From the NCBI GenBank assembly GCA_017305055.1, contig JAFKMZ010000013.1:45500-109499 (forward strand): a stretch of DNA of 64,000 bases, read 5' to 3'. Position 1 is the first letter of the stretch; the number at the start of each line of letters is the position of its first letter. Below, in pieces: positions 10,465-33,930 of this stretch. The notes beneath the pieces are model-generated. The model was not told where the DNA came from. It saw nothing but the letters and a program-made list of their open reading frames with translations, and did no database searches. Origin of the DNA: Lysobacterales bacterium (GTDB lineage: Bacteria > Pseudomonadota > Gammaproteobacteria > Xanthomonadales > Rhodanobacteraceae). Position numbers and translations under genes: made by a program.

Positions 10465-11523
10465 TCAGGGGGTAAGGAACAGCTGGCCGATGGTCACGGC
10501 CAGCGGATACGGCCGGCCGTGGTTGCGGTTGCTGAGGATGACCACGGTCAGGTGCTGCTGCGGCCAGCGCACGATGACGTTGCGAAAGCCCATGGTTTCG
10601 CCTGAGTGCCACAGGGAACCGTCGCCGCCAATCCGCCAGCCATAGCCGTAGCTGAAATCAGGATCATCCAGCGGCTCATGCGCGCTGAAGGCCACCTGCC
10701 GGGAGGCCGCGCTGAGCAGGCGGTCGTCGTACAGCGCCGCATCCCACTTCTGCATGTCGTCGATGGAGGTATAGACGCCACCGTCACCGCGCGTGGCGCT
10801 GGTGACGCTCTGGTCGGTGCGCAGCCACTTGCCGTCGACCCGGCTGTAGCCATAGGCGCGATCGTCCACTTGCGGGCCGCGGTGATGTTCGTAGAGCAGG
10901 GTGTGCTGCATGCCCAGCGGCGCGAAGATGCGCTGGCGCATGAAATCCGCCAGGTCCATGCCCGAGGTGCGCTCGACGATCAGGCCGAGCAGCACGTAGC
11001 CGCCATTGCTGTAGCGGTGGGCGCTGCCCGGCGTGAAGTACAGGTGGTTCTGTGTGGCGATCAGGCGCAGCACGTCGGCGTCGTCGATCTGCTCCTTCGT
11101 GTCCGCCGGGATCAAATCCTCGTAGTCGACCAGGCCACCGGTATGGTCCAGCAGGTTGCCGATGGTGATCGTGGCGTCGCTGGCCGGCAGTTCCGGCAGC
11201 CACTTGCGGACGGGATCGGTGAGCTGCAGCTTGCCATCCTGCTGCAGCAACAGGACGGAGGCGGCGGTGAACTGCTTGGTCACCGAGGCCAGGCGATAGT
11301 TGGTGGCCGGGGTGGTCTTGACGTGTTCTTCCAGGTTGGCGTAGCCGTAGCCGCGGCGGATCACCGCCTTGCCGTCCTTGACCACCAGCAGCGAGGCGCC
11401 CGGCCCGTCGCCGGCGTAGCGGCCCATCAGCGCATCGATCTGTCCGGCACGCGTCTGTGCCTGCGCCGCCGCGCAGATGCCGAGCATGGCCACGACGGTC
11501 CAGGCAAGCAGCAAACGAGACAT
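10465..11523 (-). CDS. Exported S12-type serine hydrolase (beta-lactamase / DD-peptidase fold)
   Basis: 352 residues with a signal peptide ending near AAAQAQ. The nucleophile motif SVTK is at residues 80-83, YSNGGY is the second active-site motif, and WHSGET supplies the HxG-type third motif. This class C beta-lactamase-like family contains D,D-carboxypeptidases, D-aminopeptidases and esterases; the exact substrate cannot be read from sequence. It is the last gene of a minus-strand run and sits 30 bp after the VanX-like dipeptidase, which supports a role in hydrolysing D-amino-acid peptides. Confidence 0.85.
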   Translation of the reverse strand: MSRLLLAWTVVAMLGICAAAQAQTRAGQIDALMGRYAGDGPGASLLVVKDGKAVIRRGYGYANLEEHVKTTPATNYRLASVTKQFTAASVLLLQQDGKLQLTDPVRKWLPELPASDATITIGNLLDHTGGLVDYEDLIPADTKEQIDDADVLRLIATQNHLYFTPGSAHRYSNGGYVLLGLIVERTSGMDLADFMRQRIFAPLGMQHTLLYEHHRGPQVDDRAYGYSRVDGKWLRTDQSVTSATRGDGGVYTSIDDMQKWDAALYDDRLLSAASRQVAFSAHEPLDDPDFSYGYGWRIGGDGSLWHSGETMGFRNVIVRWPQQHLTVVILSNRNHGRPYPLAVTIGQLFLTP

Positions 11524-11553
11524 GGCAGGCTCCGTCAGGCGGTATGGGTGAGG

Positions 11554-12276
11554 CTATTGCACCGGCACGTTGTACAGCGCCGTGGGCTGTGGATGCATGG
11601 CCAGGGTGTAGTGCCACCATTCCATCGTGTAGTTTTCGAAGCCCCGCGCGGTCATGGCCTGGCGCAGCAGGTCCCGGTTGGCGTGCTGCGCGGCGGTCAC
11701 CAGCTTGGAATCGGTATGCGCGCGCGGGTCGAACATGTCGAAATGCGTGCCCATGTCCAATGGCTGGCAGTGCGCGTCGTGTTCGTCGCAGCGCATCAGG
11801 GTCAGGTCGGTGGTGGCGCCGCGGCTGTGGTTGGATACCGGCGCGATGTAGTCGCCCAGCAACTGGCTCTTGTCGAGGTTCGGATAGTGCCCAGCCTTGG
11901 TGCGCTGGTCGGCCAGGTCGTGACCCCAGCGCACGAACGCCGCCACCGCACGGGTCGGGCGATAGCAATCCCACAACTTCAGGCGCAGGTGCTGCTTGCG
12001 CAGGTCCTGCTCGACGCGGGCCAGCGCCTCGGCGGCCGGACGCAGCAGGAAACACTTGGCCGCACCGTAGCCGTCCACTGGCGCGCCGGTGAAGTTGTCG
12101 CTGCCGGCGTATTTCATGTCCTCGGCCATGTCGGGCACCAGCGAGCGGATGTCGACCATGCCGGCCTCGGCCATCGTGGTCGCCGGCGATATCTCGGCTG
12201 TGGTATTGCCCGGGATACCGGCGGCAACAGTGACGCTGACGGTGACCAACAACGCAATGGCAAAGACGTAGCGCAT
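11554..12276 (-). CDS. D-alanyl-D-alanine dipeptidase (VanX/DdpX-like, M15D)
   Basis: 240 residues from ATG 12276, with an N-terminal signal peptide (FAIALLVTVSVTVAAG). Zinc-site motifs of M15D peptidases are present: SNHSRGATTDLTL gives the SxHxxGxAxD-type histidine and aspartate, and EWWHYT gives the catalytic glutamate and third zinc histidine. An arginine in DCYRPTRAV matches the transition-state arginine. VanX/DdpX enzymes split D-Ala-D-Ala; DdpX lets bacteria use it as food. The exported location and neighbours (D-aminoacylase-like enzyme, Ggt) argue for nutrient use, not vancomycin resistance. Confidence 0.88.
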   Translation of the reverse strand: MRYVFAIALLVTVSVTVAAGIPGNTTAEISPATTMAEAGMVDIRSLVPDMAEDMKYAGSDNFTGAPVDGYGAAKCFLLRPAAEALARVEQDLRKQHLRLKLWDCYRPTRAVAAFVRWGHDLADQRTKAGHYPNLDKSQLLGDYIAPVSNHSRGATTDLTLMRCDEHDAHCQPLDMGTHFDMFDPRAHTDSKLVTAAQHANRDLLRQAMTARGFENYTMEWWHYTLAMHPQPTALYNVPVQ

Positions 12277-12301
12277 GACGGCGACTCCCAAGGGCCGGCA
12301 C

Positions 12302-13438
12302 CTAGTCAAGCTTGCCGTTCCCGCCAAAAATGTGTGCCAGCGCGTCCGTCAAGCCTTCGACGTCCTTGCCGGCACCGCTCACGTTCGAAGTGACGGCAAT
12401 GACCATATCCTGTTCCGGATAGATCGCCAGGCGCGTCGAACCACCGACCGAACCACCGTTATGGCTCACCACCTTGCGTCCATCCGCATCCACATCCAGC
12501 CGCCAGTCCAGACCCCGACCGGTGGGCGTGCCATCCTCAAGCTTCACGGGGGCCCACAGCATTTCGCGGGTCTTGGCCGCAAGCACACGGTCGTGCAGCA
12601 CCGCGTATCCAAACCGCACCAGATCGCTGGGCGTCGACAAGTAGCCGCCGCTGGACCATTTGTAGCTCTCGTCGACGGCAGGCGAGTTTTCCAGCTTGCC
12701 GTCCTCGGTATGGTCGTAATAGGCGACGCGATCGGAAATGATGGGCTTCACGAAGTCCGCGGTGGTATCCAGCATGCCGATGGGCGCCGTGATCCTGTCG
12801 CGCACGAACGTGTAGAACGGTTCGCCGGAGATCTTCGCGACGATCGCGCCCACCAGGTTCCACGCGTAGCTTGAATAGTGGACTTGGGTGCCTGGCTTGA
12901 AGAGCAGCGGATCCCTGTCGAAGATGACCAGGCCATCCTTCAGGCTGGCATACGGCTTGTTGCTGAGCGCCTCGTCGCGCTCGTAATGCCGGATGCCGGA
13001 AGTATGTGCCATCAGCTCACGCGTGGTGATGGGCCACTTCTTCTTGGGGAAATCCGGAATATACGTCTGCACCGGCGCATCCAGCTGGATGCGGCCTTCC
13101 TCATACAACACGCCTACCGCGACCGAAGCCAGCAGCTTGGAGACGCTGCCAATGCGGAACCGCGTCCCGGGTGAAACCGGAACACGCTGCTCGACGTTCG
13201 ACCAGCCAAACCCCTCCTTCCACACCAGCTTCCCGTCCACACCGACTGCAATGGACAATCCCGGCAGGTTTTTCTCGCGGAGCAGGGTTGCGGCAACGTT
13301 TCGCGCCTGGTCGATCGCTGCTTGTTGTGGTGCCGTGACGCTTTGTGGCGCCCGGACGATGGCCTGACTGTAGGCACTCGCGGTTGCGAATGCGAGCACC
13401 GCGGCCAACAGTCCCGCCTTCGCGAGCGCCCGTGCCAT
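12302..13438 (-). CDS. Exported S12-type serine hydrolase
   Basis: 378 residues from ATG 13438, chosen because GGAAGGA lies 9 nt upstream and the hydrophobic signal segment (AGLLAAVLAFATASAYSQ) then starts near the N-terminus. SVSK at residues 98-101 holds the nucleophile. The second motif reads YSSYAWN rather than the usual YxN, and HNGG is the third motif. It belongs to the beta-lactamase/esterase/D-aminopeptidase superfamily. It lies 25 bp upstream of the VanX-like gene and 104 bp after ggt1, all in one direction. Confidence 0.84.
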   Translation of the reverse strand: MARALAKAGLLAAVLAFATASAYSQAIVRAPQSVTAPQQAAIDQARNVAATLLREKNLPGLSIAVGVDGKLVWKEGFGWSNVEQRVPVSPGTRFRIGSVSKLLASVAVGVLYEEGRIQLDAPVQTYIPDFPKKKWPITTRELMAHTSGIRHYERDEALSNKPYASLKDGLVIFDRDPLLFKPGTQVHYSSYAWNLVGAIVAKISGEPFYTFVRDRITAPIGMLDTTADFVKPIISDRVAYYDHTEDGKLENSPAVDESYKWSSGGYLSTPSDLVRFGYAVLHDRVLAAKTREMLWAPVKLEDGTPTGRGLDWRLDVDADGRKVVSHNGGSVGGSTRLAIYPEQDMVIAVTSNVSGAGKDVEGLTDALAHIFGGNGKLD

Positions 13439-13542
13439 GCGCCAGTGTCCTTCCATCCGCGTGCCCATCCGTACCCCAGAGGCTACAGGTTGCACCATGC
13501 CGCCCCCGACTGCCACCGCAGCCCGCGACAGCAACCGCACGC

Positions 13543-15444
13543 TCAATAGCCGGCAGCCAGGCCAGCAGGACGACGCAGGTCGTCATTGGCGCTCTCGAGC
13601 AGGCCGGTCTTGGGATTGACCAGGATGGCTTCGACCGCACCGCCACGGAAGGTCTTGAACGTATACCCCATGCCTTCCAGCGTCTGCTGCGCCTCTGGCG
13701 TGAGCATGCCCTTGCCTACGTAGACCACGTCCGGATACCACTGCTGGTGCAGGCGCGGCGCGTTGACCGCCTGCTGCATGTTCATGCCGAAATCGACGAC
13801 GTTGAGGAAGCTCTCCAGCACCGAGGAGATGATGGTGGCGCTGCCCGGACTGCCGGTGAGCATGAACACCTTGCCGTCGCGCAGCACGATGGTCGGCGTC
13901 ATCGAGCTCAGCGGGCGCTTGCCCGGTTCGATCTGGTTGATCACGCCCTGCACCAGGCCGGCGCCGTTGGCGACCCCGGGCTTGGCGGTGAAATCGTCCA
14001 TCTCGTCGTTCAGGAAAAACCCGGTGTCACCGGCTATCTGCTTGTTGCCGAACAGGAAGTTGACCGTGTAGGTCACGGCGACGGCATTGCCGTCCTTGTC
14101 GACCACCGAGTAATGCGTGGTGTGGTTGCCCTCGGGCGCGCCGAGGCTGCCGCTGATCTCGGACGATGGCGTGGCCTTGTCCGGCAGAATGCCGGCGCGC
14201 AGCTTGGCTGCATGCTCGGGCGAGAGCAGCTCGTCGATCGGGTTGTGCACAAAGGCCGGATCACCCAGATAGGTGTTGCGGTCGGCAAACGCGCGGCGCT
14301 CGGCCTCGACCAGGTAGTGCACGGTGTTGACCGAACCATAACCCCACTTGGCGAAGTCATAGGGCTTGATGATCTGCAGGATCAGGCACAGCGTGGTGCC
14401 GCCGGAGCTCGGTGGCGGAGCGGAAACGATGGTATAGCCGTGGTACTCGCATTGCAGCGGCTTTTCCCATTGCACGGTGTAATCGGCAAAGTCCTTGAGC
14501 GACAGGATGCCGCCATTGGCATCGCTGGCCGCCACCACGGCCTTGGCGATGGGCCCCTTGTAGAATGCGTCGGTGCCGCCGTCGGCAATCAACTGCAGCG
14601 TGTGCCCCAACTGTTTCTGCACCAGGCGCTCGCCGACCTGCCAGGCCTTGCCGTCGTTGAGGAAGATCGCGGCTACGTTGGCATGCTCGGCAAAGGCCTT
14701 GGTGTGCGGGCCCAGGCTCTGGATGTCGCCCTGCTGGAGCACGTAGCCTTCATTGGCCAGCTTGATGGCCGGCGCCATCACCTGCTTGAGCGACATCGTG
14801 CCGTATTTCTTCAACGCCGTGTTCAAGCCCATGACCGTTCCGGGCACACCCACGCCCAGGTAGGTGTCGGTGCTGCGGTCCTTGACCACGTTGCCATCGG
14901 CATCCTGGAACATCGTCGGCGTGGCCTTCAGCGGCGCCTTCTCACGGAAATTCAGGAACAGGCTGCGGCCATCCTTCAGGCGGATGTTCATGAAGCCGCC
15001 ACCACCGATATTGCCGCAGCACGAATGCACCACGGCTTCCGCATAGCCGACCGCGACCGCTGCATCCACCGCGTTGCCGCCCTGCTTGAGGATCTCCACG
15101 CCCGCCTGCGTGGCCTCATGCTGCGCGCTCACCACCATGGCGTGTTCCGCGGTGACCGGCTTGGCCTTGGCCAGCTCCTCGCGGGTGATGGCAACGTCGT
15201 CGCCGGTCTCGTCGGGGTTGACCGCAGTCGCCGGATGCGCGGTGGCCGCTGTGGCGGGAGCCCCCGCCGAGGCCGTGCCGGCCGGGCCCGCAGCGGTCGG
15301 GGCGCCGCCACCGGAACAAGCGGCAATGCCGAGCGCGGACACCGCCACCACCAGCGCGCGTCGCACGCGCCACGGCATGCCATGCACCGGAGTCATCGCG
15401 CGGTACGATCCCGCCTGGGCCGGCGGTGCGATTTGCTTCGACAT
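13543..15444 (-). CDS. ggt: Gamma-glutamyltransferase 1, predicted lipoprotein
   Basis: 633-residue precursor from ATG 15444, which has GGAGGGG 5 nt upstream. The segment VAVSALGIAAC ends in a lipobox-like cysteine, so the protein is probably lipid-anchored. The autocatalytic nucleophile is Thr442, the first residue of TTHYSVVD, giving a small subunit of ~192 residues, as in E. coli Ggt. Substrate-site blocks are conserved: VTYTVN, LNDEMDDFTAKPG (the aspartate that holds the gamma-glutamyl amino group) and PLSSMTPT. Ggt removes or transfers gamma-glutamyl groups. Downstream on the same strand are a serine hydrolase and the VanX-like dipeptidase. A conserved 57-bp promoter element lies just upstream. 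Confidence 0.95.
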   Translation of the reverse strand: MSKQIAPPAQAGSYRAMTPVHGMPWRVRRALVVAVSALGIAACSGGGAPTAAGPAGTASAGAPATAATAHPATAVNPDETGDDVAITREELAKAKPVTAEHAMVVSAQHEATQAGVEILKQGGNAVDAAVAVGYAEAVVHSCCGNIGGGGFMNIRLKDGRSLFLNFREKAPLKATPTMFQDADGNVVKDRSTDTYLGVGVPGTVMGLNTALKKYGTMSLKQVMAPAIKLANEGYVLQQGDIQSLGPHTKAFAEHANVAAIFLNDGKAWQVGERLVQKQLGHTLQLIADGGTDAFYKGPIAKAVVAASDANGGILSLKDFADYTVQWEKPLQCEYHGYTIVSAPPPSSGGTTLCLILQIIKPYDFAKWGYGSVNTVHYLVEAERRAFADRNTYLGDPAFVHNPIDELLSPEHAAKLRAGILPDKATPSSEISGSLGAPEGNHTTHYSVVDKDGNAVAVTYTVNFLFGNKQIAGDTGFFLNDEMDDFTAKPGVANGAGLVQGVINQIEPGKRPLSSMTPTIVLRDGKVFMLTGSPGSATIISSVLESFLNVVDFGMNMQQAVNAPRLHQQWYPDVVYVGKGMLTPEAQQTLEGMGYTFKTFRGGAVEAILVNPKTGLLESANDDLRRPAGLAAGY

Positions 15445-15469: not shown

Positions 15470-15526
15470 GAGCATAGTCGGCAGCCGATGCGCGTCGCCA
15501 CTGAAAAGACCACCACCGGGCATAAC
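15470..15526 (-). promoter_or_regulatory. Conserved 57-bp promoter element upstream of ggt1
   Basis: Read on the minus strand: GTTATG (15526-15521), 13 nt, TTTTCA (15507-15502), 1 nt, TGG, 21 nt, TATGCT (15476-15471). The predicted start of transcription is ~20 nt before the ggt1 ATG. The same arrangement precedes both TonB receptors and ggt3. It is likely a regulator site combined with a weak sigma-70 promoter. Confidence 0.75.
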
Positions 15527-15570
15527 CGGGGGTTCTGGCACCCATGCCATTTGTCACCCCTGGTCGGACG

Positions 15571-17196
15571 CTACTTGCTACACGTCCCCGGGGTCGGTGT
15601 ATGCAACAAAAGCCTCCCGGGCGCGGCGTTCGTCAATTTCCCCCCCGCGATCACCGGCTGGCCATTGACCAGCAAATCCACCACTCCGGCTGACAGGACC
15701 CTGGGATGTACATAATCGGCCTTGGGTGCATACCGTGCCGGATCGAAAACCACGACGTCGGCGAAATAGCCCTTCCGCAGGTATCCCCGGTCCTTCAACC
15801 CCAGGATTTCCGCGGAGAGTCCTGTCGAACGGTGAATGAAGTCGATCAGGCTGATCGCCTTCTCGTCCTTCACGTACTTGACGTACTTCTCCGGGAAGGT
15901 TGCGTACTGTCGGGGATGACCATTGCTCCCGTCGGAGCTCGTGATGACCCACGGCTGCTTCATGAATTGCCGCACGTCCGCGTCATCCATGTTGAATGAC
16001 GCAACCGAAACGCCATCGGTCTCCCTGATCAACCTCACCGCAGCATCGACAGCATCAAGCCGCCACTCCGCCGCCACGTCTTTCAGCGTCTTTCCGGTCC
16101 AGGGATGCCCGGATCGTGTCAGCAGCAGGGACTCGCTGCCCCCGCGGCGGCGAAGGTTCTCGCGCATCTCGGTCTTGATCCTCTGCAGCGTGGCAGCATC
16201 GTCAAAGCGGTGCAGCATCTCCTTCCTGCCACCAGCAACCGCCCAGCGGGGAACCAGCGAAGCCTGCAGATTGGTGCCGGAAGCCAACCACGGATATTGA
16301 TCCGCGGTCACGTCCTGGCCGGATTTGCGTGCTGCATCGATGAGGGCGATGACCTTGCCTGCGTCACCGTGAACGTCCACGCCCAAAGCCTTGATATGGG
16401 AGATGTGCGCGGGCAGTCCAGCGTCATGTCCGATTTGAATGGCCTCCTTGATGGCGCCCAAAAGGCCAATCGTATAGGACGATTCATCGCGGATATGGCT
16501 GTCGTAGATGCCGCCGCGCCTTGCCGCCTCACGCGCAAGTGCAATCACCTCATCCGTCTTCGAAAAGCTCTGCGGCGCATAGAACAACCCGGTGGAAAAA
16601 CCAAATGCCCCCTCGCACATGCCCTTGGCCACCAGGCCCTCCATGCGCTTCAGCTCCTCTGCGTCCGGTGCGCGCGCATCCATGTTCAGGACCCGCTTGC
16701 GTACCGCACCAAAACCCACGTACGGCGCCAAATTGGTGCCAATGGCATGCTGTTTGAACCACGCGGCTTCGTCACCCACGTCGGGAGTCCCGCCGCCATC
16801 CCCACCAATCATCAAAGTCGACACACCCTGAAACAGCCACGGCGCATTCAAACGTTCCTTCGGATCATCGGACCGGACGTAGGTGTCCGGGTGGGTGTGG
16901 GCATCAATGAACCCCGGCGCGACAATCATGCCCCGCGCATCGATCACCGTCCGGGCGCGATAGCGCTTGGCCGCGTCCACTCCGACATACACGATGCGAT
17001 CACCGGCAATCGCGACATCGGCGGTATGCGGCGCACCGGTGCCACCGTCGAACAGGCTGCCTCCGGAGATGACTACGTCGACCGGGGAGAGCTCCGGAGC
17101 CTGCGCCAGGGCGGATCCAACGAGTCCAATTGCCGCACAGGCCAGGATAAGCCGTACGTGGCCGAGGGCAGACTTGCAAATTCGCGAACTATTCAT
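15571..17196 (-). CDS. N-acyl-D-amino-acid deacylase-like amidohydrolase, exported
   Basis: 541 residues from ATG 17196 with a signal peptide (LILACAAIGLVGSALAQ). It has the amidohydrolase barrel of the D-aminoacylase group: metal motif GFIDAHTHPD, DSHIRDESS, HISHIKALG and the late aspartate in ITSSDGS. Known members release D-amino acids from N-acyl-D-amino acids. The position of the metal-binding cysteine of characterised D-aminoacylases (in a GNCG motif) reads GGDG here, so the metal site and specificity may differ. It sits between ggt2 and ggt1 in the same orientation, in DNA that looks less GC-rich than its surroundings. Confidence 0.85.
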   Translation of the reverse strand: MNSSRICKSALGHVRLILACAAIGLVGSALAQAPELSPVDVVISGGSLFDGGTGAPHTADVAIAGDRIVYVGVDAAKRYRARTVIDARGMIVAPGFIDAHTHPDTYVRSDDPKERLNAPWLFQGVSTLMIGGDGGGTPDVGDEAAWFKQHAIGTNLAPYVGFGAVRKRVLNMDARAPDAEELKRMEGLVAKGMCEGAFGFSTGLFYAPQSFSKTDEVIALAREAARRGGIYDSHIRDESSYTIGLLGAIKEAIQIGHDAGLPAHISHIKALGVDVHGDAGKVIALIDAARKSGQDVTADQYPWLASGTNLQASLVPRWAVAGGRKEMLHRFDDAATLQRIKTEMRENLRRRGGSESLLLTRSGHPWTGKTLKDVAAEWRLDAVDAAVRLIRETDGVSVASFNMDDADVRQFMKQPWVITSSDGSNGHPRQYATFPEKYVKYVKDEKAISLIDFIHRSTGLSAEILGLKDRGYLRKGYFADVVVFDPARYAPKADYVHPRVLSAGVVDLLVNGQPVIAGGKLTNAAPGRLLLHTPTPGTCSK

Positions 17197-17289: not shown

Positions 17290-19041
17290 CTATTGCTCGA
17301 CCGCCACACCGCCCGGGCGTCGCGGATCCGGAGCCCCTTGAATGACACCGTCCTCGCCCACTGCCAGTGTCTGCGTGGCACCTATCGCCCTGCTCACCTC
17401 AATCTGGTGACCCCACTGCTTCAGGCGCGCGAGCGTGTCCGGGCTTACCTCCGGCTCGACAGCAAGGATGCCGCTGCGCAGCTGCTGATCGATTCTTGCG
17501 GTGCTGGTCGCCTCGGCGATGTTCATGCCGAAATCAACCGTGTTGACGATCATCTGCATCACCGTTCCGGGAATCGTGTTGCCACCCGGCGTCCCGGTCA
17601 CCATCCACAGGCCCTTCTTTCCGAAAACCATGGTGGGTGACATGCTCGACACCGGACGGCGGCCTGGGCCGAGCACATTGTTTATCGCTGCCGCAACACC
17701 TTTCGCGACGCTCTCCGCCTGTTGGCCAATGGAGAAGTTGCTGATGAGGTTCCCGAGCATGAACCCAGTCCCCTCGACCATGACACCGGAACCGAAATCC
17801 GAGCCCAGGGTATATGTGGTGCTGACTGCATTGCCTTCTGCATCGATCACTGAAATCTGCGTCGTTTCCTTGCTCTCGAACTGCCACGGATCGCCGGGCT
17901 CAAGGTCCTTGACGGAAATGGTCTGCGTCGGGGAAATCAGCTTCGCCCGCGTTGCAGCGAAGGACTTGGATGCAAGACCCGCCGTCGGAATCTTTGCAAA
18001 CGCGGGATCGCCCGCGTATCGCACACGATCCCGCCATGCAAGCTTGGAGGCTTCGGCTTCGTAGTGCAGCACCTCTGCCGACCTGGCCCCGTATTGGGCA
18101 AGGTCAAAGTTCTCCAATATGTTCAGCATCTCTATCACGCTGGTTCCGCCGCCGCTGACGGGCGGCATGGTAACCACGTGATATCCCCTGTATGTCCCCG
18201 CAACCGGCTCGCGCTCCTCGGCGCGATATGCGGCCAAATCGGACAAGCCGATGAGGCCTCCATGCGCCTTCATGCCACGTGCCAGGCGCTTGGCCACCTC
18301 TCCTTTATAGAACGCATCCGCTCCATGATCCCGAATCTGCCGCAACGACCACGCCAGGTCGGACTGGACAAGCAGGTCACCAGCTTTCCAATCCCGACCA
18401 TCTGCCCGCTCGAATACCCGGGGTGCCTCAGAGCTTTCCACGAACCTGTGGTGCGCCTTCGCCCAATTGAGCGAGAGTGCCTGGCCCACGGTCACGCGAA
18501 TCCCATCTCCCGCAAGCTTGGCTGCCGGCTCAACAAGCTTGTTCCATGGCAGATGGCCAAACCTCCTGTGCGCCAGCCACAGCCCCGCTACGGTGCCCGG
18601 GACGCCTGAGGCCATATAGCCTGCCTCCTGCTTGCCATTCAGCTTTCCATCGCCACCCACATAATCCGCCAATTTGGTGGCGGACGGCGCCATGGAGCGA
18701 TAGTCGAACGCAACAACGCGGTCGTCCTTCTTCATGTAGACCAGCATGAACCCGCCACCACCGATGTTCCCTGCACGGGGAAGCGCCACGGCAAGGGCAA
18801 ATGCGGTGGCCACCGCGGCATCCACCGCGTTGCCCCCATCGCGAAGAATCTGGCCGCCAACGCGACACGCCACTTCCATCTGGCAATCGACCATCCCATG
18901 CCCTGGCATCGCCTCCACCGGAATGTGGATCGTGCCCTGATAGAGGTACTGACTGCTCTGGGCACAGGCCATTGACCAGGCAACCGAGATCGATGACAGC
19001 ACCATCACCTTCATCACGGCTTTCAGGGACTTCACAATCAT
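17290..19041 (-). CDS. Gamma-glutamyltransferase-fold acylase (Ggt paralogue 2, divergent active site)
   Basis: 583-residue precursor from ATG 19041 with a signal peptide (VMVLSSISVAWSMACAQ). The Ntn-hydrolase nucleophile is Thr393 at TTQISVID, giving a ~191-residue small subunit, and PVSSMSPT is kept. The substrate pocket is not: the asparagine after TTYT is replaced (TTYTLG), and the LNNQMDDF block of E. coli Ggt reads LGNLISNF, so the glutamine and the amino-group-binding aspartate (433 in E. coli) are lost. An aspartate-to-asparagine change at that site is associated with glutaryl/cephalosporin acylase activity in this family. An acylase acting on substrates without a free alpha-amino group is therefore as likely as a true Ggt. 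Confidence 0.85.
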   Translation of the reverse strand: MIVKSLKAVMKVMVLSSISVAWSMACAQSSQYLYQGTIHIPVEAMPGHGMVDCQMEVACRVGGQILRDGGNAVDAAVATAFALAVALPRAGNIGGGGFMLVYMKKDDRVVAFDYRSMAPSATKLADYVGGDGKLNGKQEAGYMASGVPGTVAGLWLAHRRFGHLPWNKLVEPAAKLAGDGIRVTVGQALSLNWAKAHHRFVESSEAPRVFERADGRDWKAGDLLVQSDLAWSLRQIRDHGADAFYKGEVAKRLARGMKAHGGLIGLSDLAAYRAEEREPVAGTYRGYHVVTMPPVSGGGTSVIEMLNILENFDLAQYGARSAEVLHYEAEASKLAWRDRVRYAGDPAFAKIPTAGLASKSFAATRAKLISPTQTISVKDLEPGDPWQFESKETTQISVIDAEGNAVSTTYTLGSDFGSGVMVEGTGFMLGNLISNFSIGQQAESVAKGVAAAINNVLGPGRRPVSSMSPTMVFGKKGLWMVTGTPGGNTIPGTVMQMIVNTVDFGMNIAEATSTARIDQQLRSGILAVEPEVSPDTLARLKQWGHQIEVSRAIGATQTLAVGEDGVIQGAPDPRRPGGVAVEQ

Positions 19042-26604: not shown

Positions 26605-26725
26605 GCAAGCAGTCAGTACAGCCAGGCGTCAACATCGTGTGCCGGCGCAGGCCGTGCCCAGGCTGTGCCCGCGGGTGAGGCACACGCCGCCGGGTCCAGC
26701 GATCCGCGCCACCCCACAACCTGCA

Positions 26726-26782
26726 GTTATGTCACCTGCCCATCTTTTCACTGGCCGATTGTGCATCACGGTGACTATCCTC
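26726..26782 (+). promoter_or_regulatory. Conserved promoter element upstream of ggt3
   Basis: GTTATG (26726-26731), 13 nt, TTTTCA (26745-26750), 1 nt, TGG, 21 nt, TATCCT (26776-26781) within TGACTATCCTC. The ggt3 ATG lies 28 nt beyond the -10-like box, so this is probably the promoter of ggt3 and the genes after it. Confidence 0.75.
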
Positions 26783-26809
26783 AAACCAGCCACGGAGTCC
26801 TTGGGTCCC

Positions 26810-28567
26810 ATGCTGAAATTCCGCGAACCACCCGCGCAAGAACCCCTTTCCGGTCGACGTTTTGCCCGCTTCCACCGTTGGCCTGCGATAGTCGCCTTCC
26901 TGCTGGTGGCCGGCGCCGGCTTCGACACGCAGGCGCAGTCGGGCGTATTGACGGCCACGCAGCCGACCGCCGCCATCGCCAGTGCCAATGCGCTGGCCAC
27001 CAACGCGGGCTTCGAAGTCCTGAACAAGGGTGGCAACGCGGTGGACGCAGCGGTCGCGGTGGCCACCACGCTCTCGGTGGTGCAACCCGAGGCCTCCGGC
27101 ATGGGCGGCGGCTTCCTGGCCCTGATCCATGACGCGGCCACCGGCAAGGACACCTTCATCGACGCCCGCGAGATGGCGCCGGCCGCAGTCAACAGCGCCG
27201 ACTACGCGAACGCGGATGGCAGTCCAAACCGCGACCACTCGGTCAATGGGCCGCTCGCGGCCGGCATCCCCGGCTACCCGGCCGGCCTGGCCTACATGGT
27301 GGAAAAATACGGCAAGCTGCCGCTCTCGGTGTCCGTGGCTCCGGCCATACGCATCGCCGAGAACGGCTTCCACCCGACCGAGTCGCTGGTGCGTTCGATC
27401 CAGCAGGTCGGCGACGTGCTGCGGCGCTACCCGGCGTCCAAGGCCAAGTTCTTTCCCGGCGGCAAGGCACCGCAGACCACCGACTTGTTCCGCGACAAAG
27501 CCCAGGCCAGGACCTTGAAGGCGTTTGCCGCCAAAGGTGCCAAGGGCTTCTATGCCGGGCCGGTCGCCGAGGAAATGGTGGCCGCGGTGAAGGCTGCCGG
27601 CGGCACCTGGACCATGGCCGACCTCGCCGCCTACGAGGCCAGGGAGCGCACGCCGATCGAGCTCAACTACGCCGGCTACAAGGTGATCACCGCACCGCCC
27701 GTGTCATCTGGTGGTGTAGCCATCGCGGAGATGCTCAACATCCTGGCCGGCATCGACCTCAAGGACATGGGCGAGGTGCAGCGCATGCACTATGTCATCG
27801 AGGCCATGCGCCGCGCCTTCCGCGACCACAACGAATACCTGGGCGACCCGGACTTCGTGAAGATGCCGTTGGACATGCTGCTGTCGCCGTACTACGCCGA
27901 CGGCCTGCGCCAGAGCATCCTGCCCGACCGTGCCACCAAGTCGTCGTGGTTGCCGGCTGCGCATGCAAAGGAGCCCGGCATGCATACCATGCACTTCTCG
28001 ATCATCGACCAGCACGGCAACATGGTGTCGATGACCTGCACGGTCAATACCACGCTCGGTTCGAAGTTCGTGGCCGGCAAGAGCGGCATCCTGCTCAACG
28101 ACGAGATGGATGACTTTGCCCTGGTCGCCGGCAAGCCCAATGCCTTCGGCCTGATCGGCGGCTCGGCCAACGCGCCGGTGGCGCACAAGCGCATGCTGTC
28201 CTCGATGTCGCCAAGCCTGGTCATCGGCAAGGACCGTCTGCTGGTCATCGGCTCCCCCGGCGGTTCCACCATCATCACCCAGGTGCTGGAAGGCATCCTC
28301 GGCTTCGTCGATGGCAAGAGCGCCAGCGAGATCACGGCACAGAAGCGCTACCACCACCAGTACCTGCCCGATCGCGTGGACCTCGAGCGCAACGCCTTTT
28401 CCGCTGACGTCATCGACGGGCTCAGGGCCATGGGTTACGAGATCAACGACCAACGCTCGTGGGGCAACATGAACGTGGTGACGTGGGACACCACCACCGG
28501 CGTCAAGGCCGCGGCAAGCGATCCACGCAACCCCGCGGGCCTGGGCAAAGTGGAAACCATCCACTGA
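26810..28567 (+). CDS. ggt: Gamma-glutamyltransferase 3
   Basis: 585-residue precursor from ATG 26810, with a basic stretch and a hydrophobic export segment (AIVAFLLVAGAGFDTQAQ). The nucleophile is Thr393 in TMHFSIID, giving a small subunit of ~193 residues. Conserved pocket motifs are MTCTVN, LLNDEMDDFA and MLSSMSPS, so the gamma-glutamyl amino-binding aspartate is kept. The family block GGNAVDAAVAVATTLSVVQP is near the N-terminus. It heads a tight + strand run with the ester-hydrolase-like gene, dgcN, dgcA and gltS, which suggests that it feeds glutamate into that pathway. Confidence 0.94.
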   Translation: MLKFREPPAQEPLSGRRFARFHRWPAIVAFLLVAGAGFDTQAQSGVLTATQPTAAIASANALATNAGFEVLNKGGNAVDAAVAVATTLSVVQPEASGMGGGFLALIHDAATGKDTFIDAREMAPAAVNSADYANADGSPNRDHSVNGPLAAGIPGYPAGLAYMVEKYGKLPLSVSVAPAIRIAENGFHPTESLVRSIQQVGDVLRRYPASKAKFFPGGKAPQTTDLFRDKAQARTLKAFAAKGAKGFYAGPVAEEMVAAVKAAGGTWTMADLAAYEARERTPIELNYAGYKVITAPPVSSGGVAIAEMLNILAGIDLKDMGEVQRMHYVIEAMRRAFRDHNEYLGDPDFVKMPLDMLLSPYYADGLRQSILPDRATKSSWLPAAHAKEPGMHTMHFSIIDQHGNMVSMTCTVNTTLGSKFVAGKSGILLNDEMDDFALVAGKPNAFGLIGGSANAPVAHKRMLSSMSPSLVIGKDRLLVIGSPGGSTIITQVLEGILGFVDGKSASEITAQKRYHHQYLPDRVDLERNAFSADVIDGLRAMGYEINDQRSWGNMNVVTWDTTTGVKAAASDPRNPAGLGKVETIH

Positions 28568-28604: not shown

Positions 28605-30533
28605 ATGATTCGTCGAATACTCCTTGTGGTCTGCGTGGCAGTGCTGTCGACCGGCGCATGCATGGCGCAGGTGACTCCGGATACACCGGACATTCCCGCC
28701 CACTTCGCCTTCCCTGCATCCATGTTCGACTACACCGTGCGCGACGTGATGGTGCCGATGCGCGACGGCGTCAAGCTGCACACCGTCATCGTCGAGCACA
28801 AGGACACCCACAACGCACCGATCGTGCTGACACGCACGCCGTACAACGCCTCACGCCTGGCGGCCGGCCGGCGTGCCCGCAGCATGCGCGACACCTTGCC
28901 GGTCGGCGATGATGTGTTCGTCGACGCCGGCTATATCCGCATCTACCAGGACGTGCGTGGCAAGTACGGCTCGGAAGGCGACTACTTCATGGCCGCGCCG
29001 CTGGTCGGCACGGTCAATGCCAGCAAGGTCGACGATTCCACCGATGCCTGGGACACCATCGAGTGGCTGGTGCACAACCTGCCCGAGTCCAATGGCCGCG
29101 TGGGCATGATCGGCGCGTCCTACGACGGCTTCACCGTGGCCATGGCCCTGATCCACCCGCACCCGGCACTGAAGGTGGCGGCCCCGGAGAATCCGCAGAT
29201 CGATGGCTGGATGGGCGACGACTGGTTCAACAACGGCGCCTTCCGCAATGTCAACCTGAACTACTACACGCAGCAGACCACGACCAAGGGCCTCGGTCCC
29301 TCGGTGCCGAACCCAGGCGAGGACACCTACGCCACCATGCTGCAGGCCGGCTCCTCGGGCGATTACGCCCGGGCGGCGGGCATGGAGCAGTTGCCGTTCT
29401 GGCAGAAGCTCACCACCCACCCAACCTACGACGCCTTCTGGAGCAAGCAGGCGGTGGACCGGATTCTTGCCGGGCAACCCCTGAAGGTGGCCACCATGTG
29501 GGTCGCGGGGCTGTGGGACTACGTCGACATGTATGGCGCCGTCCATGCGTACGCCGCCACCGAGCCCAAGGACCACGCCAACGACATGAACTACCTGGTG
29601 CTCGGCCCGTGGCGCCACGGCCAGGAAAATGTGGACGGTTCGTCGCTGGGCGTGTTCAAGTGGGCTGGCGATACGGCGCTGCAGTTCCGGCGCGACATGC
29701 TGCTGCCGTTCTTTGCGCGCTACCTGGTCGACGGGGCGCCGAAGCCGAAACTGTCGCCAGTGACCGTCTACGACACCGGCGCCAACCACTGGGATCACCT
29801 GGATCACTGGCCACTGGCCTGCGATGACGGGTGCAAAACGAAATCCACGGCAATGTACCTGCGTGCCGGAAAGCAACTCGCCTTCGACGCACCAACCCCC
29901 AGCGAAGAAAAATTCGATACCTACATTTCCGACCCGGCGGCTCCGGTACCGTATCGGCCGAGGCCTGATGGCACACCATCGCCAGAGGGGGCGTACTGGG
30001 CCCTGGCCGACCAGCGCTTCGTGGACAACCGTCCCGACGTCATCAGCTACACCAGCCAGCCACTCACGCAGCCCTTGCAAGTGTCAGGCGCGCCGGTGGT
30101 AAAGCTCTACGCCTCGACCACCGGCACGGACAGCGACTGGGTGGTCAAGATCATCGACGTCTTCCCGCCGGAAGACCGCCTGGCACCGGCCATGGGCGGA
30201 TACGAACTCCCGCTGTCGATGCAGATTTTCCGCGGCCGCTACCGCAGCAGCTTCAGCCGGCCGCAGAAAATCACGTCGGGTCAGCCACTGCTGTACACGT
30301 GGACCCTGCCGAACATCAATCACCAGTTCCAGCCCGGACACCGGATCATGGTGCAGATCCAATCCAGCTGGTTCCCGTTCTACGACCGCAACCCGCAGTC
30401 CTACGTGGAGAACATCTTCTTTGCCAAACCTGGCGACTACCAGGCCGCGCAACAAAGCATCTGGCATACCCCAGGGCAACCAAGCTCGATCAGCATGCCA
30501 ATCACCTCACCGGCCCCGCCACGTCTGGACTGA
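28605..30533 (+). CDS. Alpha-amino-acid ester hydrolase-like (CocE/NonD family)
   Basis: 642 residues with an N-terminal export signal. The alpha/beta-hydrolase triad is visible: Ser172 in GASYDGF, Asp305 in GLWDYVD and His338 in GPWRHGQ. The block HPHPALKVAAPENPQIDGW and the following MGDDWF closely resemble the Xanthomonas alpha-amino-acid ester hydrolases, which prefer D-configured alpha-amino acyl esters and amides. In those enzymes an acidic cluster binds the substrate amino group; here the middle residue is valine (Val307) while Asp308 and the aspartates of MGDDW remain. A C-terminal jelly-roll domain follows. It lies 37 bp after ggt3 and 28 bp before dgcN. A cocaine-esterase or X-Pro peptidase label is the generic alternative. 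Confidence 0.85.
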   Translation: MIRRILLVVCVAVLSTGACMAQVTPDTPDIPAHFAFPASMFDYTVRDVMVPMRDGVKLHTVIVEHKDTHNAPIVLTRTPYNASRLAAGRRARSMRDTLPVGDDVFVDAGYIRIYQDVRGKYGSEGDYFMAAPLVGTVNASKVDDSTDAWDTIEWLVHNLPESNGRVGMIGASYDGFTVAMALIHPHPALKVAAPENPQIDGWMGDDWFNNGAFRNVNLNYYTQQTTTKGLGPSVPNPGEDTYATMLQAGSSGDYARAAGMEQLPFWQKLTTHPTYDAFWSKQAVDRILAGQPLKVATMWVAGLWDYVDMYGAVHAYAATEPKDHANDMNYLVLGPWRHGQENVDGSSLGVFKWAGDTALQFRRDMLLPFFARYLVDGAPKPKLSPVTVYDTGANHWDHLDHWPLACDDGCKTKSTAMYLRAGKQLAFDAPTPSEEKFDTYISDPAAPVPYRPRPDGTPSPEGAYWALADQRFVDNRPDVISYTSQPLTQPLQVSGAPVVKLYASTTGTDSDWVVKIIDVFPPEDRLAPAMGGYELPLSMQIFRGRYRSSFSRPQKITSGQPLLYTWTLPNINHQFQPGHRIMVQIQSSWFPFYDRNPQSYVENIFFAKPGDYQAAQQSIWHTPGQPSSISMPITSPAPPRLD

Positions 30534-30561
30534 TGAGCACAACACCCGGAGACGAGAGTTT

Positions 30562-31605
30562 ATGTTGAACCACAGCAGTGCGCCGCAGACCGCACATTGG
30601 GGGCCACCCTATCTGCTGTACCTGGGGCAGGCGTCAGATGAGCTGGCCATCAAGACGGCCAGGGGCCTGGCATATTGGCGGCCCGAATGGTGCATCGGCC
30701 AGCTGCAGCGCCCGGGCTGCAAGGCCACGCTGGGCCTGCGCGAGCTCAACGTGGTGGAGGCCAAGGCCGCGGGCGCCAACACCATGGTCGTGGGCATGGC
30801 CAATGCCGGCGGGGTGATGGATCCGCAGACCATAACGGATGTCATCGCCGCGCTGGATGCCGGCCTGCATGTCGCTGCAGGCCTGCACAACAAGTTGCGC
30901 GAGAACCCGGAGATCGTCGCGGCGGCACAGCGCAACGGCCGCGAGCTGTTCGATGCGCGCGACCCCCAGCCCGGCATCCCGGTGGGTACCGGGCGCCGCC
31001 GCGCTGGCAAACGCCTGCTGACCGTGGGCACGGACTGCTCGACGGGCAAGATGTACACCACGCTGGCTCTCGAGCGCGAGATGCGCCAACGTGGCCTCAA
31101 GGCGGATTTCCGCGGCACAGGGCAGACTGGCATCCTGGTCGCCAACTGTGGCGTGCCGATCGACTCGGTGGTGGCGGATTTCATTTCTGGCGCGGCCGAA
31201 TGGATCTCGCCGGCGCGCTTCGATGGTGGCTGGGACCTGATCGAGGGCCAAGGCTCGTTGTTCCATCCATCGTACGCCGGGGTATCGTTGGGACTGCTGC
31301 ACGGCGCGCAGCCGGACGCGCTGGTGTTGACCCACGAACCCGGGCGGCCGCACATGCGCGGCCTGCCCGACCACCCCATTCCTGGCCTGCGCGAGTGCCT
31401 GGATGCCAACCTGAAGGCGGCGCGCCTGACCAACCCCGGAGTACGGGCGGTGGGCGTGAGTTTGAATACCTCCGGCATGTCCGCCGACGAAGCCCGGGCG
31501 CTTTGCGCCAAGGTCGCCGCCGAGCTGGAGCTGCCGTGCGCGGACCCGGTCACCATGGGCGTCGAATCGATCGTGGACCACCTGCTCGCATGCTTCGCGA
31601 ACTGA
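30562..31605 (+). CDS. dgcN: D-glutamate N-acetyltransferase DgcN (DUF1611)
   Basis: 347 residues, no export signal, so cytoplasmic. It is a DUF1611 protein with a nucleotide-binding-like loop GTDCSTGK (residues 156-163) and the conserved blocks RGTGQTGILVANCGVPIDSV and LIEGQGSLFHPSYAGVSLGL. DUF1611 proteins named DgcN convert D-glutamate to N-acetyl-D-glutamate in the pathway described in marine Proteobacteria. The assignment is strengthened because the next gene, overlapping by 16 nt, is the epimerase-like DgcA. What is inferred is that this xanthomonad-type protein has the same substrate. Confidence 0.85.
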   Translation: MLNHSSAPQTAHWGPPYLLYLGQASDELAIKTARGLAYWRPEWCIGQLQRPGCKATLGLRELNVVEAKAAGANTMVVGMANAGGVMDPQTITDVIAALDAGLHVAAGLHNKLRENPEIVAAAQRNGRELFDARDPQPGIPVGTGRRRAGKRLLTVGTDCSTGKMYTTLALEREMRQRGLKADFRGTGQTGILVANCGVPIDSVVADFISGAAEWISPARFDGGWDLIEGQGSLFHPSYAGVSLGLLHGAQPDALVLTHEPGRPHMRGLPDHPIPGLRECLDANLKAARLTNPGVRAVGVSLNTSGMSADEARALCAKVAAELELPCADPVTMGVESIVDHLLACFAN

Positions 31606-32576
31606 GCATACGGCACGACCAATTCCCCCTGGTCGCGCCGTTTCGCATCTCCCGGGGTACCCGGCTCGCTGCCGACGTGGTGACCGTGGAGCTGCGTCAG
31701 GGCCAGCATCTCGGCCGGGGCGAGTCCGTGCCGTATGCACGCTATGGTGAATCCGTAGCCTCGGTGATCGAGGAGATGGAGACCTTCCGCGGGCTGCTGG
31801 TTGCAGGCATGGGACGGGACGAGCTGCAGGTCCGGCTGCCGCCGGGGGCGGCGCGCAATGCCCTGGACGCCGCGCTGTGGGACCTGGAGTGGCAGCAGAC
31901 CTCCGTACCGGTCTGGGCGCAGTTGGCCCGAGGTCCCCACGAGGCCGTGGTCAGCGCCCTGACCATCAGCATCGACACGCCAGAGCGCATGGGCGAGGCG
32001 GCCGCCCGCCTGGCCGACGCCGGCCTGATCAAGGTGAAGCTGGACGCCAGCGATGCCGCCGCGCGTCTCGAGGCAGTGCGCCGGGCCGCGCCGCGGGCAC
32101 GACTCATGGTCGACGCCAACGAGAGCTGGAACATCGGCCTGCTGCGCGGGCTGCAGGCCACGCTGGAGCACTGTGGCGTGGAGCTGATCGAGCAGCCTTT
32201 GCCAGCCGACGCTGACGACGATCTGCTGGGCTATTCCGGGTCGATTCCACTCTGTGCGGACGAAGCCTGCCACGTCAGCACCGACCTGGCCCGCCTGCGT
32301 GGGCGCTACCAGGCAGTCAACATCAAGCTGGACAAGACCGGCGGCCTCACCGAGGCGTGGCGCCTGCTGCAGGCGGCGCGCGCGGACGGCTTCCGCATCA
32401 TGGTCGGCTGCATGGTGGGGTCGTCGCTGGGCATCGCCCCGGCCCTGGAAATCGCCCGTGAGGCGGAGTTCATCGATCTGGACGGCCCACTGTGGCTGCA
32501 GCACGACTATCCGGGCGGCCTGGTCTTGCAGGACGGCTGGCTGCAGCCGCCCGCGCCGGGCTTCTGGGGCGCATGA
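31590..32576 (+). CDS. dgcA: N-acetyl-D-glutamate racemase DgcA (enolase superfamily)
   Basis: 328 residues from ATG 31590, overlapping dgcN. It has the complete enolase-superfamily (dipeptide-epimerase type) active site: KVK with Lys148/Lys150, metal ligands Asp175 (VDANESW), Glu201 (IEQPLP) and Asp224 (ADEAC), and the opposite-face Lys246 (NIKLDKTGG). On sequence alone it could be an L-Ala-D/L-Glu epimerase, which acts on the murein dipeptide. The overlap with dgcN favours N-acetyl-D-Glu to N-acetyl-L-Glu racemisation. Both readings serve D-glutamate recovery. Confidence 0.85.
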   Translation: MLRELSIRHDQFPLVAPFRISRGTRLAADVVTVELRQGQHLGRGESVPYARYGESVASVIEEMETFRGLLVAGMGRDELQVRLPPGAARNALDAALWDLEWQQTSVPVWAQLARGPHEAVVSALTISIDTPERMGEAAARLADAGLIKVKLDASDAAARLEAVRRAAPRARLMVDANESWNIGLLRGLQATLEHCGVELIEQPLPADADDDLLGYSGSIPLCADEACHVSTDLARLRGRYQAVNIKLDKTGGLTEAWRLLQAARADGFRIMVGCMVGSSLGIAPALEIAREAEFIDLDGPLWLQHDYPGGLVLQDGWLQPPAPGFWGA

Positions 32577-32608
32577 TGCGTCCGGCCAAACTCCCTGCCA
32601 GCACAGCA

Positions 32609-32650
32609 GCTCCTTGCAGGAGCCCGCCTGCAGCAGTGGACGCGGCAAAG
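32609..32650. repeat. REP-like palindrome between dgcA and gltS
   Basis: GCTCCTTGCAGGAGC forms a 6-bp stem with a TGC loop and runs into AGCCCGCCTGCAGC. This resembles the GGAGCCCGC-type repetitive extragenic palindromes common in pseudomonads and xanthomonads. Only this one copy is seen in the window. Confidence 0.35.
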
Positions 32651-32700
32651 CCGGGTCAATTGCTGCCACGCCGGCTCCCGGCTTCAAACAGGGCCAGGCG

Positions 32701-33930
32701 ATGCTGAGCTTCGACGCGGTGCAGACCGTGGCCTGCGGCGGGCTGTTCCTCCTCGCGGGCTATGCGATCCGCCGCCACGTGCCGGTGCTGGCGCGCTTCA
32801 GCATCCCGGCGCCGGTGATCGGCGGCCTGCTGGTGGCCCTGGCGATGCTCGCGTTCCACCACTGGGACGTGACGCCGGTGCATTTCGACACCACGCTCGA
32901 GCAGCCGCTGATGATCGCGTTCTTCACCAGCATCGGCTTCAACGCCAGTGCTTCGCTGCTCAAGGTCGGTGGGCGCCAGATCCTGCTGTTCCTGGCCTTG
33001 GCCACCTTCATCGGCGTGGTGCAGAACCTGGCCGGCATCGGCCTGGCCAGGATGTTCGGGCTGCCGTCGCTGTTTGGCGTCATCACCGGCTCGGTGACCC
33101 TGATGGGCGGCCCCGCCACCGGCATGGCGTTCGCCCCGCTGTTCGCCGAGGCCGGCGTGCACGGCGCCGCCAGCGTGGCGCTGGCCAATGCCATGGCCGG
33201 CATCGTGCTGGGCTCGGTCATCGGCGCGCCCGTGGCGACGATGTTGATCGAGCGGCTCAAGTTGCGGCCAGCGGGCGGCCAAACGGGCAACCTGGCCGTC
33301 GCCGCCGATCTGCCCGTCACCACGATGGAAGCGACCGCCGTGCCGGTCACACCAAGCAGCAACGACGAGCAGGTCTATGCCGCGCTGCGAAGTTTCGTCT
33401 TCGTGCTGATTGCCATGGCGGTCGGCGCCTGGATCAGTGGTTGGATGAGCGGCGCCGGCATCACCCTGCCGAGCTACATCGGCGCCATGCTCATCGGCGC
33501 GCTGATCCGCAACCTCGACGATCGCTACCGCGTGTTTGGCCTGTCTGCGCGCAGCATCGACACCATCGGCAACATCAGCCTGTCGCTGTTCCTGGTCATC
33601 GCACTGATGAACCTGCACCTGTGGGACCTGAGCGGCCTGGCGCTGCCGCTCCTGGTCACGCTTGCCGTGCAGACCGTCATCGTGGTGGCGTTCTGCTGCT
33701 GGCCGCTGGTGCAGCTCATGGGCCGCGACTACGACGCCGCGGTGATGGCCAGCGGCTTCATCGGCTTCATGCTGGGCACCACGGCAAACGCCGTGGCCGT
33801 GATGAGTTCGCTGACCGAGCGCTTCGGCCCGGCCCCGCGCGCGTTCCTGGTCGCGCCCATCGTCGGCGCCTTCCTGATGGACTTCACCAACGCACTGATC
33901 ATCACCGGCTTCATCAACTTCCTCACATGA
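32701..33930 (+). CDS. gltS: Sodium/glutamate symporter
   Basis: 409 residues and strongly hydrophobic, with about ten or more membrane segments in two halves separated by a polar loop (around residues 190-225). Family features include SIPAPVIGGLLVAL, SIGFNASASLL and the re-entrant block GSVTLMGGPATGMAFAPLF, with the mirrored block GFIGFMLGTTANAVAVM in the second half. GltS takes up L- and D-glutamate with sodium. It follows dgcA by 124 bp in the same direction, which fits import of glutamate released in the periplasm by the Ggts. Confidence 0.95.
   Translation: MLSFDAVQTVACGGLFLLAGYAIRRHVPVLARFSIPAPVIGGLLVALAMLAFHHWDVTPVHFDTTLEQPLMIAFFTSIGFNASASLLKVGGRQILLFLALATFIGVVQNLAGIGLARMFGLPSLFGVITGSVTLMGGPATGMAFAPLFAEAGVHGAASVALANAMAGIVLGSVIGAPVATMLIERLKLRPAGGQTGNLAVAADLPVTTMEATAVPVTPSSNDEQVYAALRSFVFVLIAMAVGAWISGWMSGAGITLPSYIGAMLIGALIRNLDDRYRVFGLSARSIDTIGNISLSLFLVIALMNLHLWDLSGLALPLLVTLAVQTVIVVAFCCWPLVQLMGRDYDAAVMASGFIGFMLGTTANAVAVMSSLTERFGPAPRAFLVAPIVGAFLMDFTNALIITGFINFLT

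Follow-up and report, generated by a model that had tools for sequence, protein, structure and literature searches.

D-glutamate is catabolised through the DgcN-DgcA pathway in marine Proteobacteria and haloarchaea, YkfABCD-type operons serve the use of murein peptides in Bacillus, and TonB-linked polysaccharide utilisation loci bring together a receptor, periplasmic trimming, inner-membrane import and a dedicated regulator. The locus described here occupies positions 10465-33930 of a 64,000-nucleotide stretch of DNA (the window), and its host is probably a member of the Rhodanobacteraceae. It carries, in two arms, dgcN, dgcA and gltS, two TonB-dependent receptor genes, three genes for Ggt-fold enzymes (gamma-glutamyltransferases), further hydrolase genes and a LysR-type regulator gene. 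These genes are considered likely to form the central part of a regulon which is under LysR control and scavenges peptidoglycan stem peptides.

The DgcN-DgcA pathway is mentioned (PMC12363236, PMC10845958), the same two enzyme activities are given by EC number (PMC11747546), and peptidoglycan is called an important source of degradation-resistant D-amino acids (PMC10845958). The original prediction, made from the letters of the stretch, had proposed a D-glutamate and gamma-glutamyl scavenging locus joining outer-membrane import, periplasmic trimming and the DgcN-DgcA pathway. It appears largely right, and is sharpened here to stem peptides and a LysR regulon, each step being predicted from sequence. 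The argument is carried by the gene families of the locus, their conserved linkage, the co-occurrence of LysR and DgcN, and a shared promoter element.

LysR co-occurrence and the shared promoter element

The regulator, encoded at 22854-23756 (+), matches many LysR models (best E value 9.5e-41), none of them over its cut-off. DgcN was found in 36 of the 147 family genomes searched, in 27 of them over the model cut-off, and the hits measured fall into two classes, sharing either 68-76% (first class) or at most 53% identity with the window protein. A separate search found the LysR in 29 of the 147 genomes, exactly the 29 with a first-class DgcN (the 27 over cut-off plus G142 and G096), and in none of the other 118. 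Neighbourhoods reaching as far as 20 kb to either side were fetched for 43 of the 48 DgcN places, and in all 26 that are of the first class the window LysR lies within about 6.5 kb of dgcN. Outside these 43 were the window itself, G076 and G101, whose class assignment is based on DgcN scores of 427-430 bits, and G095 and G096, which were fetched later.

A common element was noticed by eye in 23 intergenic regions that separate divergently oriented LysR and dgcN genes (two pairs of them duplicates). It contains a T-N11-A palindrome, which in LysR-type operators is usually found near -65. Counting a TATGCT-like box as -10, the palindrome is centred at -65 in 80 and at -64 in 5 of 116 distinct elements, the remaining 31 having no matching box. 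With up to two mismatches, the core GTTATG-N12-CTTTTCATTGG matches four times in the 3.5 Mb of the genome from which the window comes (the own genome), always within the locus, and each match precedes one transcription unit, as deduced from open reading frame (ORF) coordinates and chosen starts. All ends of the four copies are approximate. The first (AGAACCnnnGGTTAT, CTTTTCAGTGG, TATGCT; ~15470-15538, core 15498-15526, -) stands before Ggt1, the second (exact GTTATGn12CTTTTCATTGG; ~22180-22253, core 22213-22241, -) before the receptor TonB1, the third (~23772-23841, core 23784-23812, +) before the receptor TonB2, and the fourth (~26714-26783, core 26726-26754, +) before Ggt3. Besides LysR, the inferred units are TonB1-Ggt2-amidohydrolase (unit 1), Ggt1-S12b-M15-S12a (unit 2), TonB2 alone, and Ggt3-CocE-dgcN-dgcA-gltS. 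Since the shared element precedes every one of them, and occurs nowhere in the own genome outside the locus, both arms look like one regulon, in which LysR would bind the element.

All 29 genomes with LysR contain the element (103 sites, against 2 for a reversed-pattern control), the dgcN site being present by construction in most of them; the own genome, G009, G074, G126 and G146, in which LysR and dgcN are not divergent, contributed no sequence to the pattern. Of 29 genomes chosen among those without LysR, two have the element (2 sites, against 3 for the reversed control). Within the window, CTTTTCATTGG at one mismatch is found four times, against 0.55 expected, a number reached in none of 100 shuffles. 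Joint control of the two arms, on which the original prediction had staked one of its tests, thus came out favourably through the shared element, in silico only. One match of the operator pattern alone, on contig C91 (L216), was dropped, as no relative of the gene set lies nearby.

The first frame downstream was assigned for 122 sites, in proportions that are biased because it was mostly dgcN or a site that decided which loci were fetched, and with some sites counted twice (L119/G118, L121/G134 and L152/G142 overlap). It encodes DgcN in 38 cases, an Oar-like outer-membrane barrel in 33, TonB2 in 12, Ggt1 in 11, Ggt3 in 8, an amidohydrolase-3 protein in 5, amidohydrolase relatives in 3 and TonB1 relatives in 3; S12, an SDF symporter and a transaminase account for one site each, and other or no frames for 6. 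An Oar-like barrel gene and a TPR-sulfotransferase gene form a pair near dgcN in L120, L121, G117:C38, G083:C1 and others, and the barrel gene of this pair is often under the element. These data bear on a use of the enzymes in recycling or modifying the cell's own wall rather than in scavenging foreign fragments. S12, M15 and D-amino-acid enzymes occur in recycling too, but TonB receptors come first after two of the four window elements, outer-membrane barrel genes (33 Oar-like and 15 receptor relatives) follow 48 of the 122 elements in the fetched loci, the hydrolases have predicted export signals, and LysR is missing from 118 of 147 family genomes, so that an own-wall role seems extremely unlikely.

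Linkage was evaluated next to co-occurrence. Among the 70 Ggt genes of the 29 DgcN/LysR genomes, 22 are no more than 20 kb away from dgcN, where 0.76 would be expected, and they are spread over 20 of the 29 genomes; the P value is to be taken as a guide only, the genomes being related, and two fragment rows were left out. The order LysR-TonB2-Ggt3-dgcN-dgcA-gltS recurs in G009, G126, G146 and L118. A cluster dgcN-dgcA-Ggt1-lysA-S12-M15-S12a is found in G024, G042, G083 and G118, that is, in four of six g24 genomes, and in G096 the same cluster was seen with no M15 found in it; genes of both arms are joined in a single cluster in these genomes.

Named loci were compared among the best 80 of 93. 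Of ten Luteimonas/Pseudoxanthomonas loci, 9 show dgcN-dgcA-amidohydrolase-gltS, 9 Ggt2, 7 S12 and 5 M15, and all 10 have a TonB receptor relative, some of these only 22-25% identical; no DgcA is in view in L151. Among five Caulobacter-named loci, three hold dgcN-dgcA with a TonB receptor, the amidohydrolase and Ggt2, all six sphingomonad loci hold dgcN-dgcA-amidohydrolase, and 11 Pelagibacteraceae loci hold, among the window proteins searched, the dgcN-dgcA pair only. The linkage of dgcN-dgcA with TonB receptors and with Ggts, whose lack of conservation had been named as refuting the original prediction, is conserved in several lineages.

The D-glutamate step

DgcN (D-glutamate N-acetyltransferase, 30562-31605, +) scores 516.4 on model NF041892 (cut-off 480), and its nearest structure in the PDB is 7xrj. 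DgcA (31590-32576, +), a racemase of N-acetyl-D-Glu or an L-Ala-D/L-Glu epimerase (AEE), scores 433.0 on NF042940 (cut-off 400), and the start of its gene overlaps the dgcN stop. The sodium/glutamate symporter GltS (32701-33930, +) passes TIGR00210 with 323 against 310.75.

The same locus and substrate could also be combined with a DgcA that acts in practice as an L-Ala-D/L-Glu epimerase on imported dipeptide, the DgcN-DgcA pathway not being the main route. In the DgcA tree the AEE of E. coli (1jpd) falls among the DgcA-type sequences, as the sister group of a 31-member clade holding the window DgcA (support 0.956), and the pocket motifs RG.R/K, PY.RYGE and DLDGP are common to both proteins; a residue test meant to separate DgcA from AEE gave no discrimination, as all three motifs occur in both. 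In addition, only 9 of 20 genomes checked pass the DgcA cut-off, and eight of the 20 have a first-class DgcN and no DgcA (G005, G022, G064, G082, G095, G117, G124, G134). These eight carry only a distant enolase-type epimerase of about 165 bits, which in the six of them fetched lies near lysA in 6/6 and near M15 in 4/6; gltS follows DgcN and LysR in six of the eight. On the other side, the window protein passes the DgcA equivalog but falls below the cut-off of the AEE model NF011708 (PRK15129; 310.8 against 343), dgcA overlaps dgcN and is paired with it from Pelagibacteraceae to Caulobacter, and the gene that follows is GltS, not a peptide carrier. A main role as dipeptide epimerase is on these grounds rated unlikely, and DgcA may racemise N-acetyl-D-Glu rather than epimerise L-Ala-D-Glu.

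A second DgcN-DgcA-like pair was observed in the own genome (G000 contig C74, 113537-115548; L096), with 49% and 39% identity to the window proteins. Its DgcA-like pocket is altered, GSTM and GVSYHAD replacing RG.R and PY.RYGE, and its neighbours are TonB receptors, an amidohydrolase, lysA and a sigma factor-FecR pair. This pair possibly serves another D-amino acid.

Exported hydrolases, Ggt pockets and the likely substrate

Export was predicted by a hydropathy heuristic on the chosen starts, not by SignalP. Every hydrolase of the locus has an N-terminal hydrophobic stretch and Ggt1 has a lipobox, while DgcN and DgcA have neither. Unit 2 is led by the predicted lipoprotein Ggt1 (13543-15444, ORF to 15516, -; PF01019, TIGR00066). 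It continues with S12 hydrolase b (12302-13456, ORF to 13546, -; PF00144), the VanX-like M15 D-Ala-D-Ala dipeptidase (11554-12276, ORF to 12327, -; PF01427) and, as last gene, S12 hydrolase a, which is AmpH / D-aminopeptidase-like (10465-11523, -; PF00144); all three have a predicted signal peptide. The M15 protein passes its Pfam model and fails the VanX equivalog NF033115 (183 against 320 bits); its orthologues, 72-78% identical, stand behind dgcN-dgcA in four genomes, and those of S12 hydrolase a (66-76%) in several dgcN neighbourhoods.

Unit 1 opens with TonB1 (19215-22040, ORF to 22067, -; PF00593 and PF07715) and contains Ggt2 (17290-19041, ORF to 19137, -) and a D-aminoacylase-type amidohydrolase predicted to be exported (15571-17196, ORF to 17268, -; PF07969). 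The latter stays under its best NCBIfam cut-off (198.6 against 340). Its PDB matches are 1rjp, a D-aminoacylase, and 3gip, an N-acyl-D-Glu deacylase, and its orthologue sits within dgcN-dgcA-gltS in Luteimonas, so the enzyme may release D-Glu from N-acyl-D-Glu or L-Ala-D-Glu. TonB2 (24083-26545, ORF from 24014, +; PF00593 and PF07715) has orthologues of 61-80% identity; its PDB matches, almost all of them confined to the plug, are receptors for siderophores, colicin I and vitamin B12, and indicate no substrate. The last unit starts with Ggt3 (26810-28567, ORF from 26639, +) and a CocE/NonD (S15) hydrolase with a predicted signal peptide (28605-30533, +; PF02129, TIGR00976).

The named genes are thus where the original prediction had placed them, as judged by ORF calls and profile searches, and its contrast of exported trimming enzymes with DgcN and DgcA lacking export signals is matched by the heuristic. 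Of the identities it gave, DgcN, DgcA, GltS and the three Ggts are upheld by curated cut-offs and the VanX-like M15 at the Pfam level only. The esterase it called AEH-like is present as the CocE/NonD gene, which belongs to the locus by operon position only, as 43 family neighbourhoods contain no relative of it. Just beyond the locus lie a further exported S12 hydrolase gene (34598-35983, +) and a 2115-residue open frame (36201-42548, +) whose sole Pfam match is a diphthamide synthase-like domain near the C-terminus; this frame is perhaps a GC-rich shadow frame fused to a real gene.

All three Ggts exceed the TIGR00066 cut-off of 357.85 (552 for Ggt1, 488.1 and 425.6 for the others) and keep the nucleophile T391. 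N411 and D433, which are presumed to bind the amino group of the donor, are kept in Ggt1 and Ggt3. Ggt2 departs from a canonical Ggt in having G411, L430 and N433, with T391, R114, S462 and S463 retained. G411 and N433 recur in all 12 relatives scored (49-58% identity), which also keep T391 and S462, have Ser or Thr at 463 and keep R114 where aligned (10 of 13, window included); L153, L159 and L141|8441 (28-35% identity), a partial L122 piece and the unaligned own_C23 are left out of this residue table. Lacking these donor-pocket residues, Ggt2 could possibly take an N-blocked substrate such as L-Ala-gamma-D-Glu-diaminopimelate (DAP). Genes at least 72% identical to Ggt3 occur in 10 of the 147 family genomes, all among the 29 with first-class DgcN, a more distant Ggt3-like gene being widespread; Ggt3 thus appears as a DgcN-linked duplicate.

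The review PMC8062742 describes a contact of Arg114 of Ggt with the carboxylate of the donor and reports, for the D445N change of Bacillus subtilis Ggt (position 433 of E. coli), a 90% loss of activity and a 55-fold gain in cephalosporin acylase activity. The Asn engineered there occurs naturally in Ggt2, where, unlike in D445N, it is combined with G411 and L430. The same source links a lid loop with poor use of poly-gamma-glutamate, polymer-hydrolysing Ggts having none. Between positions 433 and 462 the three window Ggts have 29-30 residues (E. coli, 29), so that each of them carries the lid loop, unlike a polymer-hydrolysing Ggt.

Next to dgcN, or controlled by the element, relatives carry lysA, the DAP decarboxylase gene (over cut-off in L119 and L120, 465 against 297.9), DadA (685.6 against 383), a D-amino-acid transaminase (of two, one is over a cut-off), a BhcC-type aldolase, an S58 peptidase, and GH20 with glucokinase; an element-led cluster of G118 holds an Oar-like barrel, one unscanned frame, S12 and NamZ. 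Two lysA-type matches were found in each of 13 genomes checked. One scores about 460-480 bits and in nine genomes belongs to the dgcN cluster; the other, weaker and within a frame of 875-1182 residues, is over the cut-off in 12 genomes and under it in the own genome, and is taken as a bifunctional aspartokinase-decarboxylase. The occurrence of lysA, M15, D-amino-acid enzymes, GH20 and NamZ in relatives points to peptidoglycan stem peptides as the substrate. The original prediction had offered poly-gamma-glutamate beside them, and consumption of this polymer, or of free gamma-glutamyl peptides, would fit the presence of three Ggts and gltS, the more so as Bacillus Ggts degrade the polymer (PMC8062742). 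The lid loops of all three Ggts, and the DAP-, D-Ala- and muramidase-related functions in the regulon and its relatives, led to rejection of the polymer as main substrate; a locus devoted to it or to free gamma-glutamyl peptides is judged very unlikely, and the stem peptides are favoured.

The favoured route, whose substrate, direction of flow and hydrolase specificities are deduced from gene families, would run as follows. The two TonB receptors would import muropeptides or stem peptides across the outer membrane, and periplasmic S12 and M15 enzymes would remove D-Ala and D-Ala-D-Ala. Canonical Ggts would cleave gamma-glutamyl bonds where the amino group is free, whereas Ggt2 may cut gamma-D-Glu-DAP while L-Ala still blocks D-Glu, and the D-aminoacylase-type enzyme may split the resulting L-Ala-D-Glu. 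Glutamate would enter through GltS, which would then have to transport D-Glu, and DgcN-DgcA would convert D-Glu to N-acetyl-L-Glu. A bolder proposal, put forward tentatively and on balance doubtful, makes Ggt2 the type of a new Ggt-fold class, a periplasmic gamma-D-glutamyl-DAP amidohydrolase taking N-blocked L-Ala-gamma-D-Glu-meso-DAP; together with the amidohydrolase as an exported L-Ala-D-Glu dipeptidase, it would take the place of the NlpC/P60-epimerase route within the LysR regulon, DgcN having a role of its own.

Several observations, besides the grouping of DgcA with AEE and the DgcA-less genomes, weigh against stem-peptide scavenging by a LysR regulon. In the TonB1 copy of the element the first palindrome half is altered to ATAAGG, and a clear TATGCT box is missing. 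Taken by itself, the short operator pattern does not reach significance, with 5 matches in the window (mean 1.61; 5 reached in 4 of 100 shuffles) and 7 in the own genome against 7 for its reverse, and the tie between LysR and the element is drawn from sequence. Orthologues of Ggt2 and of the amidohydrolase are absent near dgcN in the 26 first-class family neighbourhoods, except for a 38% amidohydrolase in G005. GltS showed none of the D-Glu-permissive changes sought, being wild-type E. coli-like at 163, 355 and 371 (the first two taken from PMC12502697, in which GltS altered at sites of this kind could feed D-Glu auxotrophs; 371 mapped by offset). ArgE is not among the three M20 matches classified, of 16, which leaves the final step to L-Glu without an enzyme. 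DAP decarboxylase, NamZ, DadA and an endopeptidase were not found among the genes scanned in the locus; lysA of the own genome is on a separate contig, C74, and NamZ was not found in that genome. Finally, a Ggt on contig C48 of the own genome also lacks the N411/D433 pair (D411, N433), whose loss is hence not unique to Ggt2. The gene of this Ggt (G000 contig C48, 55111-56631) lies near a TonB2 relative (36%).

Comparison with known systems

If the regulon is real, its defined promoter element would make the fate of peptidoglycan D-amino acids genetically testable in Rhodanobacteraceae. The Ggt2 group would provide natural Ggts that bear a substitution made before in an engineered Ggt, and the DgcA-less genomes raise the question of what DgcN does there.

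YkfABCD-type operons and the family loci L200-L208 likely serve murein peptide catabolism, as the present locus probably does, and most of L200-L208 hold relatives of its M15 and S12a. They differ in having a dipeptide epimerase instead of DgcN-DgcA and the Ggts; L202, the one scanned, also has NlpC/P60 and M19. As an example of their content, L202 (G126:C1:1262001-1282000) comprises an SDF symporter, the dipeptide epimerase, NlpC/P60, DUF819, an Oar-like barrel, lysA, M19, S12, M15 and S12a, some of these named by similarity only and others by Pfam; L200, L201 and L203-L208 are similar loci. The shared promoter element was not found at this second, murein-type locus of G126.

TonB-linked polysaccharide loci follow the same logic of receptor, trimming, import and regulator as the present locus, which differs from them by its peptide enzymes, its LysR control and the lack of a glycan enzyme among the genes scanned. 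With the DgcN-DgcA pathway the locus shares an adjacent, overlapping pair that is likewise over the curated models. In the Pelagibacteraceae loci (n=11, within the best 80 of 93) the pair stands without the other window relatives searched, whereas at the present locus it is joined by TonB receptors, Ggts and peptidases that have a promoter element in common with it. Among the titles and abstract openings listed by searches of an open-access library (for two of these searches, 10 of 59 and 12 of 60 entries), none describes dgcN-dgcA together with Ggts and TonB receptors; as far as these searches reach, the combination is new and its enzymatic core is known.

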